Source of the DNA: Gallaecimonas mangrovi
GTDB taxonomy: Bacteria; Pseudomonadota; Gammaproteobacteria; Enterobacterales; Gallaecimonadaceae
DNA: 64,000 nucleotides
Direction: 5' to 3'
NCBI RefSeq assembly: GCF_003367375.1
Contig: NZ_CP031416.1
Coordinates: forward strand, 2,239,501-2,303,500
Positions 55,432 through 59,723 of this stretch are shown in pieces. The translations under genes and the position numbers were made by a program. The stretch's first letter is position 1, and every line of letters begins with the position of its first letter. The notes below the pieces were generated by a model. The model was given only the letters and a program-made list of their open reading frames with translations, ran no database searches and had not been told where the DNA came from.

Positions 55432-55854
55432 ATGCGTGCCAGTTGCTTGTTTCTGGTAGCCCTTTTCAGCCTGGCTGCCCAGGCCGCTACCTTAAATGAC
55501 CAGTTTGATCGCAAAACTCAGGTTCCTGGGGATGCCAAAGCCATTTATTTCGCCGCCGACATGGACGCCAACGACCTCATCAAAGAGGCCTTTGGCAAAG
55601 ATAAAGCGGACACCATGGCCAAAGCCGGTGTGCTCTATGTCGCCGATATATCGAAGATGCCCGGTTTGGTTTACAAACTCTTTGCCAAGCCAAAGATGAA
55701 AAAATACCCGTTTAGGATAGTGGTTGACCAAGAAGGTGATGTCACCAAAGACTGGCCCCGTGAAGAAGGTGCCGTAACGGTGATTAAAGGAAAAGAACAT
55801 CAGTTTTGTAAGGATGTCACCTGTTTAAAAGACGCTCTACCTAACCACCCATAG
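55432..55854 (+). CDS. Small exported protein, possible thioredoxin-fold (YtfJ-like)
   Basis: 140 residues, AAGGAG 7 nt before the ATG, signal peptide about 1-18 (AAQA). The C-terminal half (YPFRIVVDQEGDVTKDWPRE) recalls the periplasmic YtfJ family, a thioredoxin-fold group without the CxxC site. Two cysteines near the end (FCKDVTC) could form a disulfide. Not firmly assignable; own terminator, single gene. Confidence 0.6.
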   Translation: MRASCLFLVALFSLAAQAATLNDQFDRKTQVPGDAKAIYFAADMDANDLIKEAFGKDKADTMAKAGVLYVADISKMPGLVYKLFAKPKMKKYPFRIVVDQEGDVTKDWPREEGAVTVIKGKEHQFCKDVTCLKDALPNHP

Positions 55855-55966: not shown

Positions 55967-56419
55967 GTGACCTTAGTCCTTTCTTCACTCCTTGCCAGCC
56001 CTTCGTTGTGCCGCACTCTGGAAAGCTGGCTGCAAGGCCCGCAAGCCTTGGAACGCTGGGCCGGCCCAAACCTTAAGGCGGGGTTTGAACTGGCCGATTT
56101 AGGCTTTAAGGAAGGGCAAAGCTATGCTGGTTTTGTGAACGAGCAATGGGTCGCCTTTGGGCAAATCGCCCCTCGCCATGGCCGCTTGCACCTGTCCAGG
56201 TTAATTATCCGCCCCGACTTTCGCGGTTATGGTTTGGGTAACCAATGGGTGCGGGCACTGCTCAGTACCGCCCCCACCACGGCCTTTGGCCTTAATGTTT
56301 ACCCAGGCAACCAAGCCGCCGTGCGCTGCTATCAGCGCTTAGGCTTTATAAAAGACAACCGTTACGCCCAACACGCCGGGGTTGATTACTACTGGCTTAA
56401 CCAGGCAGCACCTAGCTAA
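55967..56419 (+). CDS. GNAT-family acetyltransferase
   Basis: 150 residues with GTG start at 55967. Acetyl-CoA-binding motif A is LIIRPDFRGYGLGNQWV; motif B LNVYPGNQAAVRCYQRLGF. Substrate unknown. No upstream ATG in frame and no clear ribosome site, so the start is the least certain point. Confidence 0.82.
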   Translation: MTLVLSSLLASPSLCRTLESWLQGPQALERWAGPNLKAGFELADLGFKEGQSYAGFVNEQWVAFGQIAPRHGRLHLSRLIIRPDFRGYGLGNQWVRALLSTAPTTAFGLNVYPGNQAAVRCYQRLGFIKDNRYAQHAGVDYYWLNQAAPS

Positions 56420-56500: not shown

Positions 56501-58435
56501 ATGCGGCCTGCCCTTCACTTCCTTTTTTGCCTACTGCTGTTGCTGAGCGGTGCCAGCCAGGCAGAGCCAATCAACCGCCCGCATACCACTGTTGCTCTCA
56601 AAGCCAACCTAAGCACCTTTGTCCCCGGTAAATCCTTTTGGGTTGCGGTGCATTTTCGTCCTGATGCGCACTGGTACACCCATTGGCAAAACCCTGGCAA
56701 CTGGGGCTTTGCTCCGCATCTTGATTGGCAGCTGCCTGATGGTTGGAAAGCGGGTGCTATCCATTGGCAAGTGCCGAAAACCATTACCATAGCGGGCAAA
56801 ACACATTTCGGTTTCGAGGGTCCATCAAGCCTGCTGGTGCAACTTACGCCCCCCGAAAACGCCAGCAATCTAACCCTAAAAGCCAAGCTGTCTTGGCTGG
56901 TCTGCCAAGAAACCTGCCTGCCAGAAAAGGCGCTATTAACCCTGCCGCTTACCGCTGGCAGCGCTATTCAAAGCGCCAACAGCGGCTTTTTTGCCGAGGC
57001 ATTGGCAAAGCTGCCGTCGCCTTTGCCTGGCAGGGGCAAAATGCAAATCGAAAAAGACGTGGTGTCCTTTTCGCTAAAGGTGCCTGAGCTGGCAGGCCAA
57101 CCCACGCAAGTCTTTGTTACCAGCAACAACTTGGTGGATAACAACGCCCAACCACAACAAATATGGCAAGGCGATACCTTGCTGATATCCTTACCCAAAA
57201 GCCCCTATTTCAACCAACTGCCTACCGCTCCCAAGGTGCTGCTGACTACCCCCGACCAAGCCTTACTGGTTACCATGGCCGCATCCGACACTGCCGCCCG
57301 TTACCCAAGCCTTTGGCTTATCTGCCTTATGGCTTTTGCTGGCGGGCTTGTGCTTAACCTTGTGCCTTGGGTATTGCCGGTACTGGTTATTAAGGCGCTG
57401 AAATGTAAAAGAGACCCGGGCTTTGGCTATCTTGCCGGGGTACTGATTAGCCTGTGGGCTCTTACCCTTACGCTGTGGTTACTACACCAAGGCAGCGAAG
57501 CGCCAGACTGGGGTTTTAACTGGCGATCCCCGGTATGGGTCGCTTTGCAGGCCAGTATTTTTGCCATCCTCGGGTTGGGGCTTATCGGTAAAGTAGGCCG
57601 GAACGCCTTTAAAGGCGTTAGCCAGCGGCTACTGCGCCAGCAACCGCTGGCGTCGTTTTTAACCGGCTTGCTGGCCGTTGTCGTGGCAAGCCCCAGCACG
57701 GCTTTACTGCCCAACCCAGGCATTGATCTCACCCAAAGTCTGTGGCCACTGCTAGCGGTGTGCAGCGCACTTGGGGTCGGCTTTGCATTGCCAATGCTGC
57801 TACTTAATAAGCTGCCCGCTCTTCATAGCCGGCTACCCAAACCGGGGCCGTGGATAACAAAAGCCTATGTGGTGTTGGCCTTGCCATTGCTACTGAGTGC
57901 CATTTGGCTACTTTGGGTACTCAACAACCTCAATGGCCAAGCCTTTGGTCTTCTGGCAACCTGGGTAGTGGGTGTTGCTATTTGGCTGCTGCCATGGCGG
58001 CTTTGTCGGTGGCTGGCGTGGCTACCGATGCTGGTTGTCGCGCTTTTGCCACTTTGGCACCAGGCCTCACCGCCACAGTCGCTAGCCTTTGATGAATCGA
58101 CCTTGAAAACGCGCTTAAGCCAGCACCGGCCGGTACTGGTCAACATCACCGCCGATTGGTGCATTAGCTGCAAAGTGAACGAAAGTACCACCTTATCAAG
58201 TGAAGAAACCCGCGCCCTTTTCGCGCTGTATGATGTGACTTACCTTAAAGGTGACGGGACTAGTCAGAGCCCGGTGATTCGCCGTTTTTTGGCCGGGTTT
58301 CACCGCACCACGGTGCCACTTTATGTGCTCTACGACCAGCAAGGTGCGCCACATATTTTGCCGCAGCTGTTAAGCCCACAAATACTTGCCGCCGCGCTAA
58401 AACGCCACCTTGAAGCCAGCGCAAAAAATAAATAG
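56501..58435 (+). CDS. DsbD/ScsB-like protein lacking both intramembrane redox cysteines
   Basis: 644 residues. Signal peptide about 1-21; periplasmic DsbD N-domain (about 30-150) with C135-x3-C139 in WLVCQETCLPE; membrane region about 270-520; C-terminal thioredoxin-like domain with C554-x2-C557 in ADWCISCKV. In DsbD and ScsB the membrane domain carries a Cys in LNLMPCVLPV and another in VASPCTAP. Here these read LNLVPWVLPV (W290) and VASPSTALL (S399), so thiol electrons cannot cross the membrane by the known mechanism. The rest of each motif is intact and the frame is open, so this looks like change of function rather than decay. A SecF-like gene follows 15 nt later. Confidence 0.85.
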   Translation: MRPALHFLFCLLLLLSGASQAEPINRPHTTVALKANLSTFVPGKSFWVAVHFRPDAHWYTHWQNPGNWGFAPHLDWQLPDGWKAGAIHWQVPKTITIAGKTHFGFEGPSSLLVQLTPPENASNLTLKAKLSWLVCQETCLPEKALLTLPLTAGSAIQSANSGFFAEALAKLPSPLPGRGKMQIEKDVVSFSLKVPELAGQPTQVFVTSNNLVDNNAQPQQIWQGDTLLISLPKSPYFNQLPTAPKVLLTTPDQALLVTMAASDTAARYPSLWLICLMAFAGGLVLNLVPWVLPVLVIKALKCKRDPGFGYLAGVLISLWALTLTLWLLHQGSEAPDWGFNWRSPVWVALQASIFAILGLGLIGKVGRNAFKGVSQRLLRQQPLASFLTGLLAVVVASPSTALLPNPGIDLTQSLWPLLAVCSALGVGFALPMLLLNKLPALHSRLPKPGPWITKAYVVLALPLLLSAIWLLWVLNNLNGQAFGLLATWVVGVAIWLLPWRLCRWLAWLPMLVVALLPLWHQASPPQSLAFDESTLKTRLSQHRPVLVNITADWCISCKVNESTTLSSEETRALFALYDVTYLKGDGTSQSPVIRRFLAGFHRTTVPLYVLYDQQGAPHILPQLLSPQILAAALKRHLEASAKNK

Positions 58436-58450
58436 CGAAGATTTAAGGCG

Positions 58451-58990
58451 ATGCAGCCCCTGCCACCGCGCGCCCTTGGCATTCTCGCCTACCTTGCCTT
58501 GCGCTTTGAATGGCGGCTGGCAACCGGGGCCTTACTGGCACTGCTGCACGATATTATCTTGGTACTCGGGGTGTTTTCGCTATGTGGTTTTAGCTTTGAC
58601 TTAACGGTACTGGCCGCCCTGTTGGCGGTGATGGGCTATTCGGTGAACGACTCTATTGTGGTGGCCGACAGGCTGCGTGAATACCTGGGCCGCCGCCAAA
58701 AAATGCCGGTGGCGCGCTGCGTTGATAACGCTATCCGTTCTACCTTTTCCCGTACCTTGGTTACCTCTGGTACCACGCTTTTTACGGCTGGCGCCATTTT
58801 ACTGCTCGGCGGCCCGCCGCTTTTTGGCTTCGCCCTCACCCTGTTTGTGGGAATAATGGTCGGCACTTGGTCGTCTATCTTTGTCGCCGCCACCCTCGGT
58901 GAGCTGTTTGGCGTAAAACCCCAGCATTACCGCAAAAAAGCCAGGTTACCCAAAGAAGGTGAACCGCTAACGGCAGCGCAGCGTCAATAA
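58451..58990 (+). CDS. SecF homologue reduced to membrane helices 2-6
   Basis: 179 residues. The sequence enters SecF at helix 2 (YLALRFEWRLATGALLALLHD, shown in part) and keeps DLTVLAALLAVMGYSVNDSI, VADRLREYLG, RTLVTSGTTLFTAGAILLLGG and a C-terminal KPQHYRKK-like end. The first transmembrane helix and the periplasmic domain of full SecF (about 140 residues) are absent, and no remnant lies upstream in any frame because the DsbD-like gene occupies that space. No SecD is nearby. Likely co-transcribed with the DsbD-like gene. It may be a specialised paralogue or a relic. Confidence 0.82.
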   Translation: MQPLPPRALGILAYLALRFEWRLATGALLALLHDIILVLGVFSLCGFSFDLTVLAALLAVMGYSVNDSIVVADRLREYLGRRQKMPVARCVDNAIRSTFSRTLVTSGTTLFTAGAILLLGGPPLFGFALTLFVGIMVGTWSSIFVAATLGELFGVKPQHYRKKARLPKEGEPLTAAQRQ

Positions 58991-59022: not shown

Positions 59023-59186
59023 GTGCCAACTTTTCGCTGAAAGCCGTTTTTTGTGTGCTCGCTTCAAACTAAAACAAAAAAACTGGCGTCATGCAGGAAC
59101 AACCCTCAAATTCCCCTACTGTTATCTGAGTGCGAAAAATCAGAGTCAGGCAATGGACATGCCCAACACACATCAAGGAGCGATTT

Positions 59187-59723
59187 ATGTATAACAACTT
59201 TGCACAATTTTTTGTGGATATTTTACCCCGGCTGCCAGCCGCTAATCAGTTTGTTCATGCAAACCGATGCTGGCAGGTATATCAAAACGCCAGAGACGCC
59301 GACCTCAATATGCTCGCCATGGGCCGGCTCAATGCCCTTGGCAATGCTGAAATAAACAACCTTGGCGCCACCAATACCACAGGCAGGGGAAGCATCCTCC
59401 GGGATGCAAACTGGAGTATCCAGATGAATGATGCCTGGGTATTAGGCGGTATACACGGCCTGCGTGAATTCCACCTCGCGTCAGCTACAACAGATGGCAA
59501 CATCATCAATATGAATTACCAACTTCACCAAGATCCGGAAATGATCTTCACGGTGACCGGCCGAGAACTTTTTGGCCTGACCACCTGTGGCTACAGTATC
59601 TACCATGAGTCAGATACTTTCGGTACGGTGCTGACCTGCACCCAACCAAACGTTGCCAACCGTGCTCGCTTCCAAGATTACTGGGACGAAGTCAGAGCAG
59701 CAGCCATAGCGATGACGAACTAA
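59187..59723 (+). CDS. Unrecognised 178-residue protein
   Basis: Start ATG at 59187 with AAGGAG 8 nt upstream; an extension to 59130 is less likely. No signal peptide, membrane span or motif that I know. Composition is Asn- and Ala-rich with two Cys (residue 28 and TTCGY near 132); the middle reads ILRDANWSIQMNDAWVLGGI and GGIHGLREFHLAS. It stands alone between two terminators. It could be an effector-like or sensory small protein, but nothing in the sequence proves this. Confidence 0.65.
   Translation: MYNNFAQFFVDILPRLPAANQFVHANRCWQVYQNARDADLNMLAMGRLNALGNAEINNLGATNTTGRGSILRDANWSIQMNDAWVLGGIHGLREFHLASATTDGNIINMNYQLHQDPEMIFTVTGRELFGLTTCGYSIYHESDTFGTVLTCTQPNVANRARFQDYWDEVRAAAIAMTN

Follow-up and report, generated by a model that had tools for sequence, protein, structure and literature searches.

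A ScsB/DsbD-type protein of Gallaecimonas mangrovi that has lost both membrane relay cysteines from an intact reading frame, in what is very probably an eroding operon

We describe a ScsB/DsbD-type protein of Gallaecimonas mangrovi in which both cysteines of the membrane relay have been lost from an intact reading frame, with the cysteine pairs of the two periplasmic domains kept. DsbD and ScsB are the textbook wires across the membrane, and the relay very probably stands severed here within an operon that is itself eroding. The gene lies in a stretch of 64,000 nucleotides (hereafter the window), to which all positions below refer unless a locus is named. It was compared within a genus set of five genomes, namely that of the window (G000) and four congeners (G001, G002, G003 and G004). 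The gene and its diagnostic residues are as follows:

56501..58435, plus strand: scsB/dsbD-type gene, 644 codons from the ATG, frame open throughout
56903..56917, plus strand: alpha-domain cysteine pair C135/C139, kept, motif LVCQETC
57368..57370, plus strand: W290 at the place of the first membrane cysteine, codon TGG, motif VPWVLP
57695..57697, plus strand: S399 at the place of the second membrane cysteine, codon AGC, motif SPSTALL
58160..58171, plus strand: gamma-domain CxxC C554/C557, kept, motif ADWCISC

With borders drawn by eye, the protein consists of a signal peptide, an alpha domain (residues ~22-262), a membrane domain (~263-525) and a gamma thioredoxin domain (~526-644). The initial annotation, which had put W290 and S399 in place of the membrane cysteines and had reported C135/C139 and C554/C557 as kept, was right in every residue. 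It had also described the motif surroundings as intact, which is true of LVCQETC and ADWCISC; those of the two lost cysteines have changed, as the MPCVFP and SPCTAP of relatives read VPWVLP and SPSTALL in the window protein, with a two-residue gap after SPSTA. The codon equivalent to that of W290 is TGC in G001 and G004 and TTC in G003, and that equivalent to S399 is TGC in G001 and G004 and GGG in G003. The broken frame by which a pseudogene is recognised is absent from the window scsB. Its membrane domain contains four other cysteines (C275, C302, C421 and C502), none of them at a conserved place and the last three without a counterpart in G001. The G003 protein has four cysteines in total, all of them periplasmic, and its membrane domain holds none. 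Some wear is also visible in the gamma domain, where WCxxC has become GCxxC in G003 and AGVP has become TTVP in the window protein.

Profile searches recovered the two periplasmic domains of the window protein: DsbD_N (PF11412) at residues 40-146 with 60.8 bits (cut-off 25) and Thioredoxin_7 (PF13899) at 540-612 with 47.6 bits (cut-off 27). DsbD_TM (PF02683, cut-off 27.1 bits) was not reported in the window or G003 protein at an E limit of 10, a setting at which the HMMER filters still remove most matches with E above about 0.1. Among cysteine-bearing relatives, the five that were scanned gave 48.9-69.6 bits. For DsbD_N the G003 protein scored 52.8 bits and the relatives 59.2-68.8, and for Thioredoxin_7 the corresponding values were 44.8 and 48.0-58.8. 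Hydrophobic segments are still present in the window membrane domain, for which no other Pfam family was reported. The NCBIfam DsbD model NF001419 matched the window protein over a C-terminal stretch only, with 38.5 against a cut-off of 330 bits. An AlphaFold2 model built with 40 sequences had a mean pLDDT of 86.3 and a pTM of 0.73, both periplasmic domains being the most confidently predicted and some stretches of the membrane domain less so. In Foldseek searches with this model the best match was the N-terminus of Proteus mirabilis ScsB (6c29; E 2.5e-12, TM 0.75 by target length, 17% identity), so that by predicted fold ScsB would be the nearest relative of the N-terminal domain, and the gamma domain matched cDsbD structures (2fwh at E 1.5e-5).

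To place the loss among homologues we searched 59 genomes of relatives including the window's own (32 with a match), a GTDB contig collection from which the best 80 of 239 relatives were kept (the genus itself not being among these 80), and 394 genomes of the order, at least 148 of which had a match at E<=1e-50; from the order search we used 30 loci among the matches listed and fetched 80 further places. In a first alignment of 105 rows, comprising the window and 104 homologues with one sequence per locus, columns 290 and 399 are both cysteine in 103 rows, the exceptions being the window (W, S) and L004, the locus of G003 (F, G). A wider alignment of 214 loci, reduced to 205 sequences by removal of duplicates and all distinct in the membrane domain, gave the same picture: 203 have cysteine at both columns, and the window and G003 proteins have neither. 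The initial annotation had allowed that an alignment might show the true cysteines at other positions, which these columns and the cysteine-free membrane domain of G003 speak against. Loss of a single membrane cysteine was seen in none of the 205; in both exceptions the two go together. The gamma CxxC is kept in all 205, and the alpha pair in 200, that is, in every homologue having an alpha domain in frame, the remaining five being without one in the same frame. The annotation had further suggested looking for a clade sharing W and S at these sites; a second species with the loss does exist, but its residues are F and G, and just two of the 205 are affected. Homologues on plasmids (247 records) were all below 60% identity.

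We also asked how far the loss stands out from general change. Of 98 columns invariant across two congeners and five outgroups, 14 have changed in the window protein and 31 in that of G003. The chance that both membrane cysteines fall among the changed columns is 0.019 and 0.098, respectively, or 0.0019 jointly on the assumption of independent lineages, a post hoc figure because the cysteines had drawn attention first. That the periplasmic cysteines were kept does not reach significance alone (joint p 0.113).

Within the genus, the residues at the two relay positions are W/S in the window genome, F/G in G003 and C/C in G001 and G004, and G002 has no scsB. The scsB proteins of G001, G004 and G003 are 62%, 59% and 55% identical to that of the window. 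All five genomes encode a canonical DsbD with all six catalytic cysteines, separate from scsB. Additional DsbD-type matches occur beside it in the congeners: a second full-length one in G001 (L036), one covering profile positions 148-572 in G002 (L037), and matches to the N-terminal domain only in G003 (L038) and G004 (L039); the DsbD search of the genus genomes found no such extra match in the window genome.

A species tree built on a concatenation of 14 genes (8108 columns) gave the topology (((G000,G001),G003),G004),G002 with full support, and the window genome groups with G001 in 100/100; these 14 came from 20 candidates, six having been dropped by eye for low identity, no outgroup match or suspected spurious frames. 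As this tree places the window with G001, the window genome and G003, both cysteine-less, are not sister to each other. The gene tree of scsB favours joining them (UFBoot 86), but does not lead to rejection of the species topology (p-AU 0.159). Ten of the 98 strictest columns have changed in both the window and G003 proteins (4.4 expected, p 0.0012), five of them with identical replacements, where a rough BLOSUM estimate predicts 0.8. The reverse control on 95 outgroup-conserved columns found one change in G001 and three in G004, none shared; without the outgroups the split has no direction, and 18 identical columns occur in both counts. At columns conserved in at least four of the five outgroups, the window and G003 proteins share seven identical changes. 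The alpha domain holds four of these (H59Y, N102H, I140L and G142E), two of them beside the cysteine pair. A single shared loss by simple descent is conceivable, one of these trees separating the window from G003 and the other joining them. Both cysteines may have been lost once, with gene exchange, or twice, with parallel change, and the same-residue replacements might likewise reflect shared ancestry, gene exchange or parallel change.

We then examined the gene contexts of scsB, using G001 as the reference. There scsB overlaps by 4 bases with a gene for an AhpC/TSA redoxin (P0008, by Pfam), followed by a gene for a small secreted protein, secD2 and secF2. The corresponding elements around the window gene are as follows:

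55432..55854, plus strand: putative secreted protein of 140 aa with C126/C131, found in the four genus genomes with scsB
55967..56419, plus strand: GNAT acetyltransferase upstream of scsB; one that is 54% identical lies upstream of the G001 scsB
58378..58470, plus strand: deletion junction; in blastn against G001 (L042) homology stops at L042:10902 and resumes at L042:14210
58451..58990, plus strand: 3' remnant of the accessory secF2, 179 aa, covering only SecF profile positions 135-275 of 279

Homology to G001 thus ends at window position 58377 and restarts at 58471, skipping L042:10903-14209, which holds the end of scsB, the redoxin gene, the small secreted protein gene, secD2 and the 5' part of secF2. 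A whole-genome search for secD2 in the window genome returned only the main secD (43% identical); secD2 was not found in G002 either. The main secF of the window genome is complete, and the main secDF is located elsewhere. The SecF-like neighbour mentioned in the initial annotation is what a deletion has left of an accessory secF, namely its 3' half, and we rejected SecF as a functional partner of the protein. The 140-aa protein, which has no Pfam match and was not found in G002, the genus genome without scsB, was considered as a candidate client; a four-sequence AlphaFold2 model reached a pLDDT of 54, too low for any conclusion. Past the secF stump and before the next gene there is a 197-aa frame (window 59130-59723) with no Pfam match and no match among the frames of the compared G001 and G004 regions.

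A search of ten genomes, nine of them with scsB, placed a redoxin gene directly downstream of scsB in six of the nine (G001, G023, G046, G010, G018 and G054), and recovered no credible redoxin orthologue anywhere in G000, G003 and G004, which carry scsB, or in G002, which does not; the best match in the window genome had an E of 1.6e-5 over 34 residues and lay away from scsB. Among 80 named loci, 55 have a redoxin gene on the strand of scsB and at a distance of -84 to +646 bases from its end, a count from which a weak opposite-strand match at L101 was excluded; five of the other 24 loci have less than 600 bases downstream of scsB. Twenty of the 80 have no credible redoxin despite at least 1.1 kb downstream and keep the membrane cysteines. 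In G004, too, the redoxin is absent and both cysteines are kept. These cases show that loss of the redoxin is not sufficient for loss of the relay. The cluster is breaking up in several ways, since it is disrupted differently in four members of the genus: by the deletion in the window genome; in G002 by the lack of scsB, redoxin, secD2 and accessory secF, none of which was found; in G003 by an Rhs-repeat gene that stands between scsB and the small protein gene, where G001 carries the redoxin; and in G004 by absence of the redoxin alone, scsB being followed directly by the small protein gene, which is 55% identical to its G001 counterpart. In G003 the Rhs-repeat gene, of 1492 aa, is accompanied by two small frames, and the three occupy L044:2755-8890, between scsB and the secD2 side of the operon.

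Branch lengths on the species tree, listed in the order G000, G001, G003 and G004, were 0.61, 0.19, 0.93 and 0.24 for the membrane domain, 0.39, 0.22, 0.40 and 0.20 for alpha, 0.29, 0.12, 0.27 and 0.14 for gamma, and 0.080, 0.036, 0.038 and 0.038 for core genes. On these values the window lineage is fast genome-wide, with a speed-up of alpha and gamma about equal to that of the genome and one of the membrane domain exceeding it. In G003 alpha and gamma evolve at about twice the G004 rate although the core genes show no such effect. The contrast of membrane to periplasmic domains over 100 bootstraps was 2.38 (1.29-6.63) for G003/G004 and 1.67 (0.88-3.18) for G000/G001, against 0.41 (0.08-1.20) and 1.39 (0.72-3.28) in the canonical DsbD as control. 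Thus, the membrane-domain acceleration is clear in G003 and suggestive, not firm, in the window lineage. A count of private changes pooled over both lineages agrees with this contrast (p 0.031; separately 0.14 and 0.10). At columns conserved in at least four of five outgroups, the numbers changed in the window, G003, G001 and G004 proteins were 21, 25, 15 and 16 of 56 in alpha, 34, 39, 20 and 22 of 97 in the membrane domain, and 17, 19, 10 and 12 of 47 in gamma.

Codon models rejected omega=1 for every domain on both cysteine-less branches, the window values being 0.18 for alpha (p 8.1e-7), 0.27 for the membrane domain (p 2.1e-12) and 0.16 for gamma (p 2.8e-5). These estimates average the time before and after loss of the relay, and the synonymous sites are saturated, branch lengths having reached the bound of 3 and a looser bound having taken an internal omega to its limit. 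Membrane-domain omega does not differ from the background in the window (p 0.76) and does in G003 (p 0.0043). The secF stump, which is presumably dead, likewise rejects omega=1 (omega 0.156, p 2.9e-5), so that the test on scsB reports past selection. The omega of the stump is raised relative to the congeners (0.156 against 0.069, p 0.013). The best reading of these comparisons is that scsB was constrained for most of its history and that the membrane relay was specifically abandoned.

We consider that the window genome very probably encodes, beside its canonical DsbD, a thiol reductase of ScsB type with a severed transmembrane wire. Judging by comparison among the genomes, the ancestral operon would have begun with scsB and an AhpC/TSA redoxin as its likely client; in the genus the gene for the small secreted protein and an accessory pair, secD2 and secF2, would have come next. 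A deletion in the window genome has removed everything from the redoxin through the middle of secF2, and the membrane domain has lost both relay cysteines and drifted past recognition by Pfam, the two periplasmic domains keeping their predicted folds and cysteines. Since the relay pair is missing, the protein should not draw electrons from the cytoplasm, its own membrane domain presumably offering no passage to those of cytoplasmic thioredoxin. What is left in the membrane would now be an anchor, leaving only thiol exchange between gamma, alpha and an outside partner, which would be driven, if at all, in trans by the canonical DsbD or another periplasmic thiol. Feeding in trans by the canonical DsbD is conceivable because, as Katzen and Beckwith reportedly found, separately expressed DsbD domains can work together. 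We would further guess that the cysteine loss was useful in halting leakage of electrons through a conduit lacking its client, as a clientless conduit may be costly; the joint chance calculated above, post hoc and dependent on independent lineages, leans towards a useful loss over drift. Taken as a whole, a cut-wire ScsB-type reductase with its periplasmic thiol domains retained is an explanation that we accept with slightly more belief than doubt. Such a protein would either be maintained as a periplasmic thiol protein anchored in the membrane or be in the course of disappearing. Whether the protein still has a periplasmic function is a question on which we lean narrowly towards doubt, and we rate this no higher because the secF stump passes the same selection test. 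The more specific proposal, a membrane anchor with a fixed periplasmic alpha/gamma module for thiol exchange, fed in trans by DsbD or another donor and bearing the shared alpha-domain changes, appears unlikely.

Ordinary gene decay, by which a useless second reductase would have no function left and its frame would be open through recent or slow loss, is a tenable if less probable account. The differing breakage of the operon in four genus members speaks for it, the window and G003 proteins exceed those of G001 and G004 in the number of changed conserved columns in each of the three domains, the stump shows that a broken gene can still reject neutrality in the codon test, and the complete canonical DsbD could make scsB redundant. 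Set against this are the 644 intact codons at 55-62% identity to the congeners, synonymous sites being saturated; omega values far under 1 in every domain; alpha and gamma scores still well above the Pfam cut-offs; and recurrence of the pattern in two species.

It is improbable that electrons now take another route through the membrane domain, by a cofactor or by C302, C421 and C502 as relocated cysteines, or that this domain has gained a new transport function. The three cysteines private to the window protein with respect to G001 and the seven identical changes shared with G003 could be read in its favour, but the membrane domain is the most changed part of the protein and matches no other Pfam family, and relocated relay cysteines were rejected on the ground that G003 has none there. 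For the other electron source or transport role that the initial annotation had offered we found no evidence. It is scarcely credible that the missing cysteines reflect a sequencing error, a misassembly or a recent mutation private to this genome. The annotation had regarded sister homologues with both cysteines as the sign of a recent mutant, and G001 and G004 do keep both; G003, however, has lost both, which makes a recent mutant or an artefact unlikely. That the relay residues are gone from an intact frame, as the annotation had claimed, was borne out, and their loss is not confined to the window genome. The G003 loss, the altered motif surroundings and the unreported DsbD_TM together argue against a trivial recent mutation, and the assembly of the window genome consists of one contig of 4,071,977 bases scored as 100% complete.

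The window protein resembles ScsB of P. mirabilis and Caulobacter crescentus, members of the DsbD superfamily, in its large N-terminal periplasmic domain, membrane middle and C-terminal thioredoxin domain, and its relatives resemble them in the neighbouring redoxin; it differs in lacking both membrane cysteines, and its locus in lacking the redoxin. Caulobacter ScsB is described as handing electrons to TlpA and a periplasmic peroxiredoxin (PMC5403849; original work by Cho et al. 2012), and because a peroxiredoxin system is the client there, the redoxin is a likely candidate, by analogy, for the natural client of the scsB protein. With DsbD, for which the electron route is outlined as thioredoxin to membrane domain to cDsbD to nDsbD (PMC3961690, PMC7347389), the protein shares the three-part architecture and a gamma domain matching solved cDsbD; it differs in falling under the NCBIfam cut-off, in lacking the membrane relay cysteines and in standing beside a separate full DsbD in the genome. 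Among the features of a ScsB/DsbD transporter it has DsbD_N with its cysteine pair and the C-terminal thioredoxin domain with its CxxC, and lacks a recognisable DsbD_TM, the two relay cysteines and an adjoining redoxin, the last being common in its sub-lineage and not universal. By descent it is ScsB-like; lacking two defining features, it is not counted as a working electron transporter. The case is real, uncommon and coherent, yet we view the protein above all as belonging to a known family, with its relay severed and its operon eroding. No description of a DsbD or ScsB naturally without its membrane cysteines was found in the titles and opening abstract lines of the papers listed in literature searches.

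A wire-less version kept in frame offers a natural test of whether the periplasmic halves act alone, and allows one to ask whether one reductase feeds another in trans and whether a clientless conduit is harmful. The genus presents side by side the redoxin-bearing G001, the redoxin-less G004, the cysteine-less window and G003 genomes, and G002 without the gene. The homologues lacking alpha (L221, L240, L261, L266 and L269) are also a natural partial relay, the reverse of the window protein in that they keep the membrane and gamma cysteines with no alpha in frame. They are frames of 410-421 aa consisting of membrane and gamma domains, and in L221 a stop lies inside the match.
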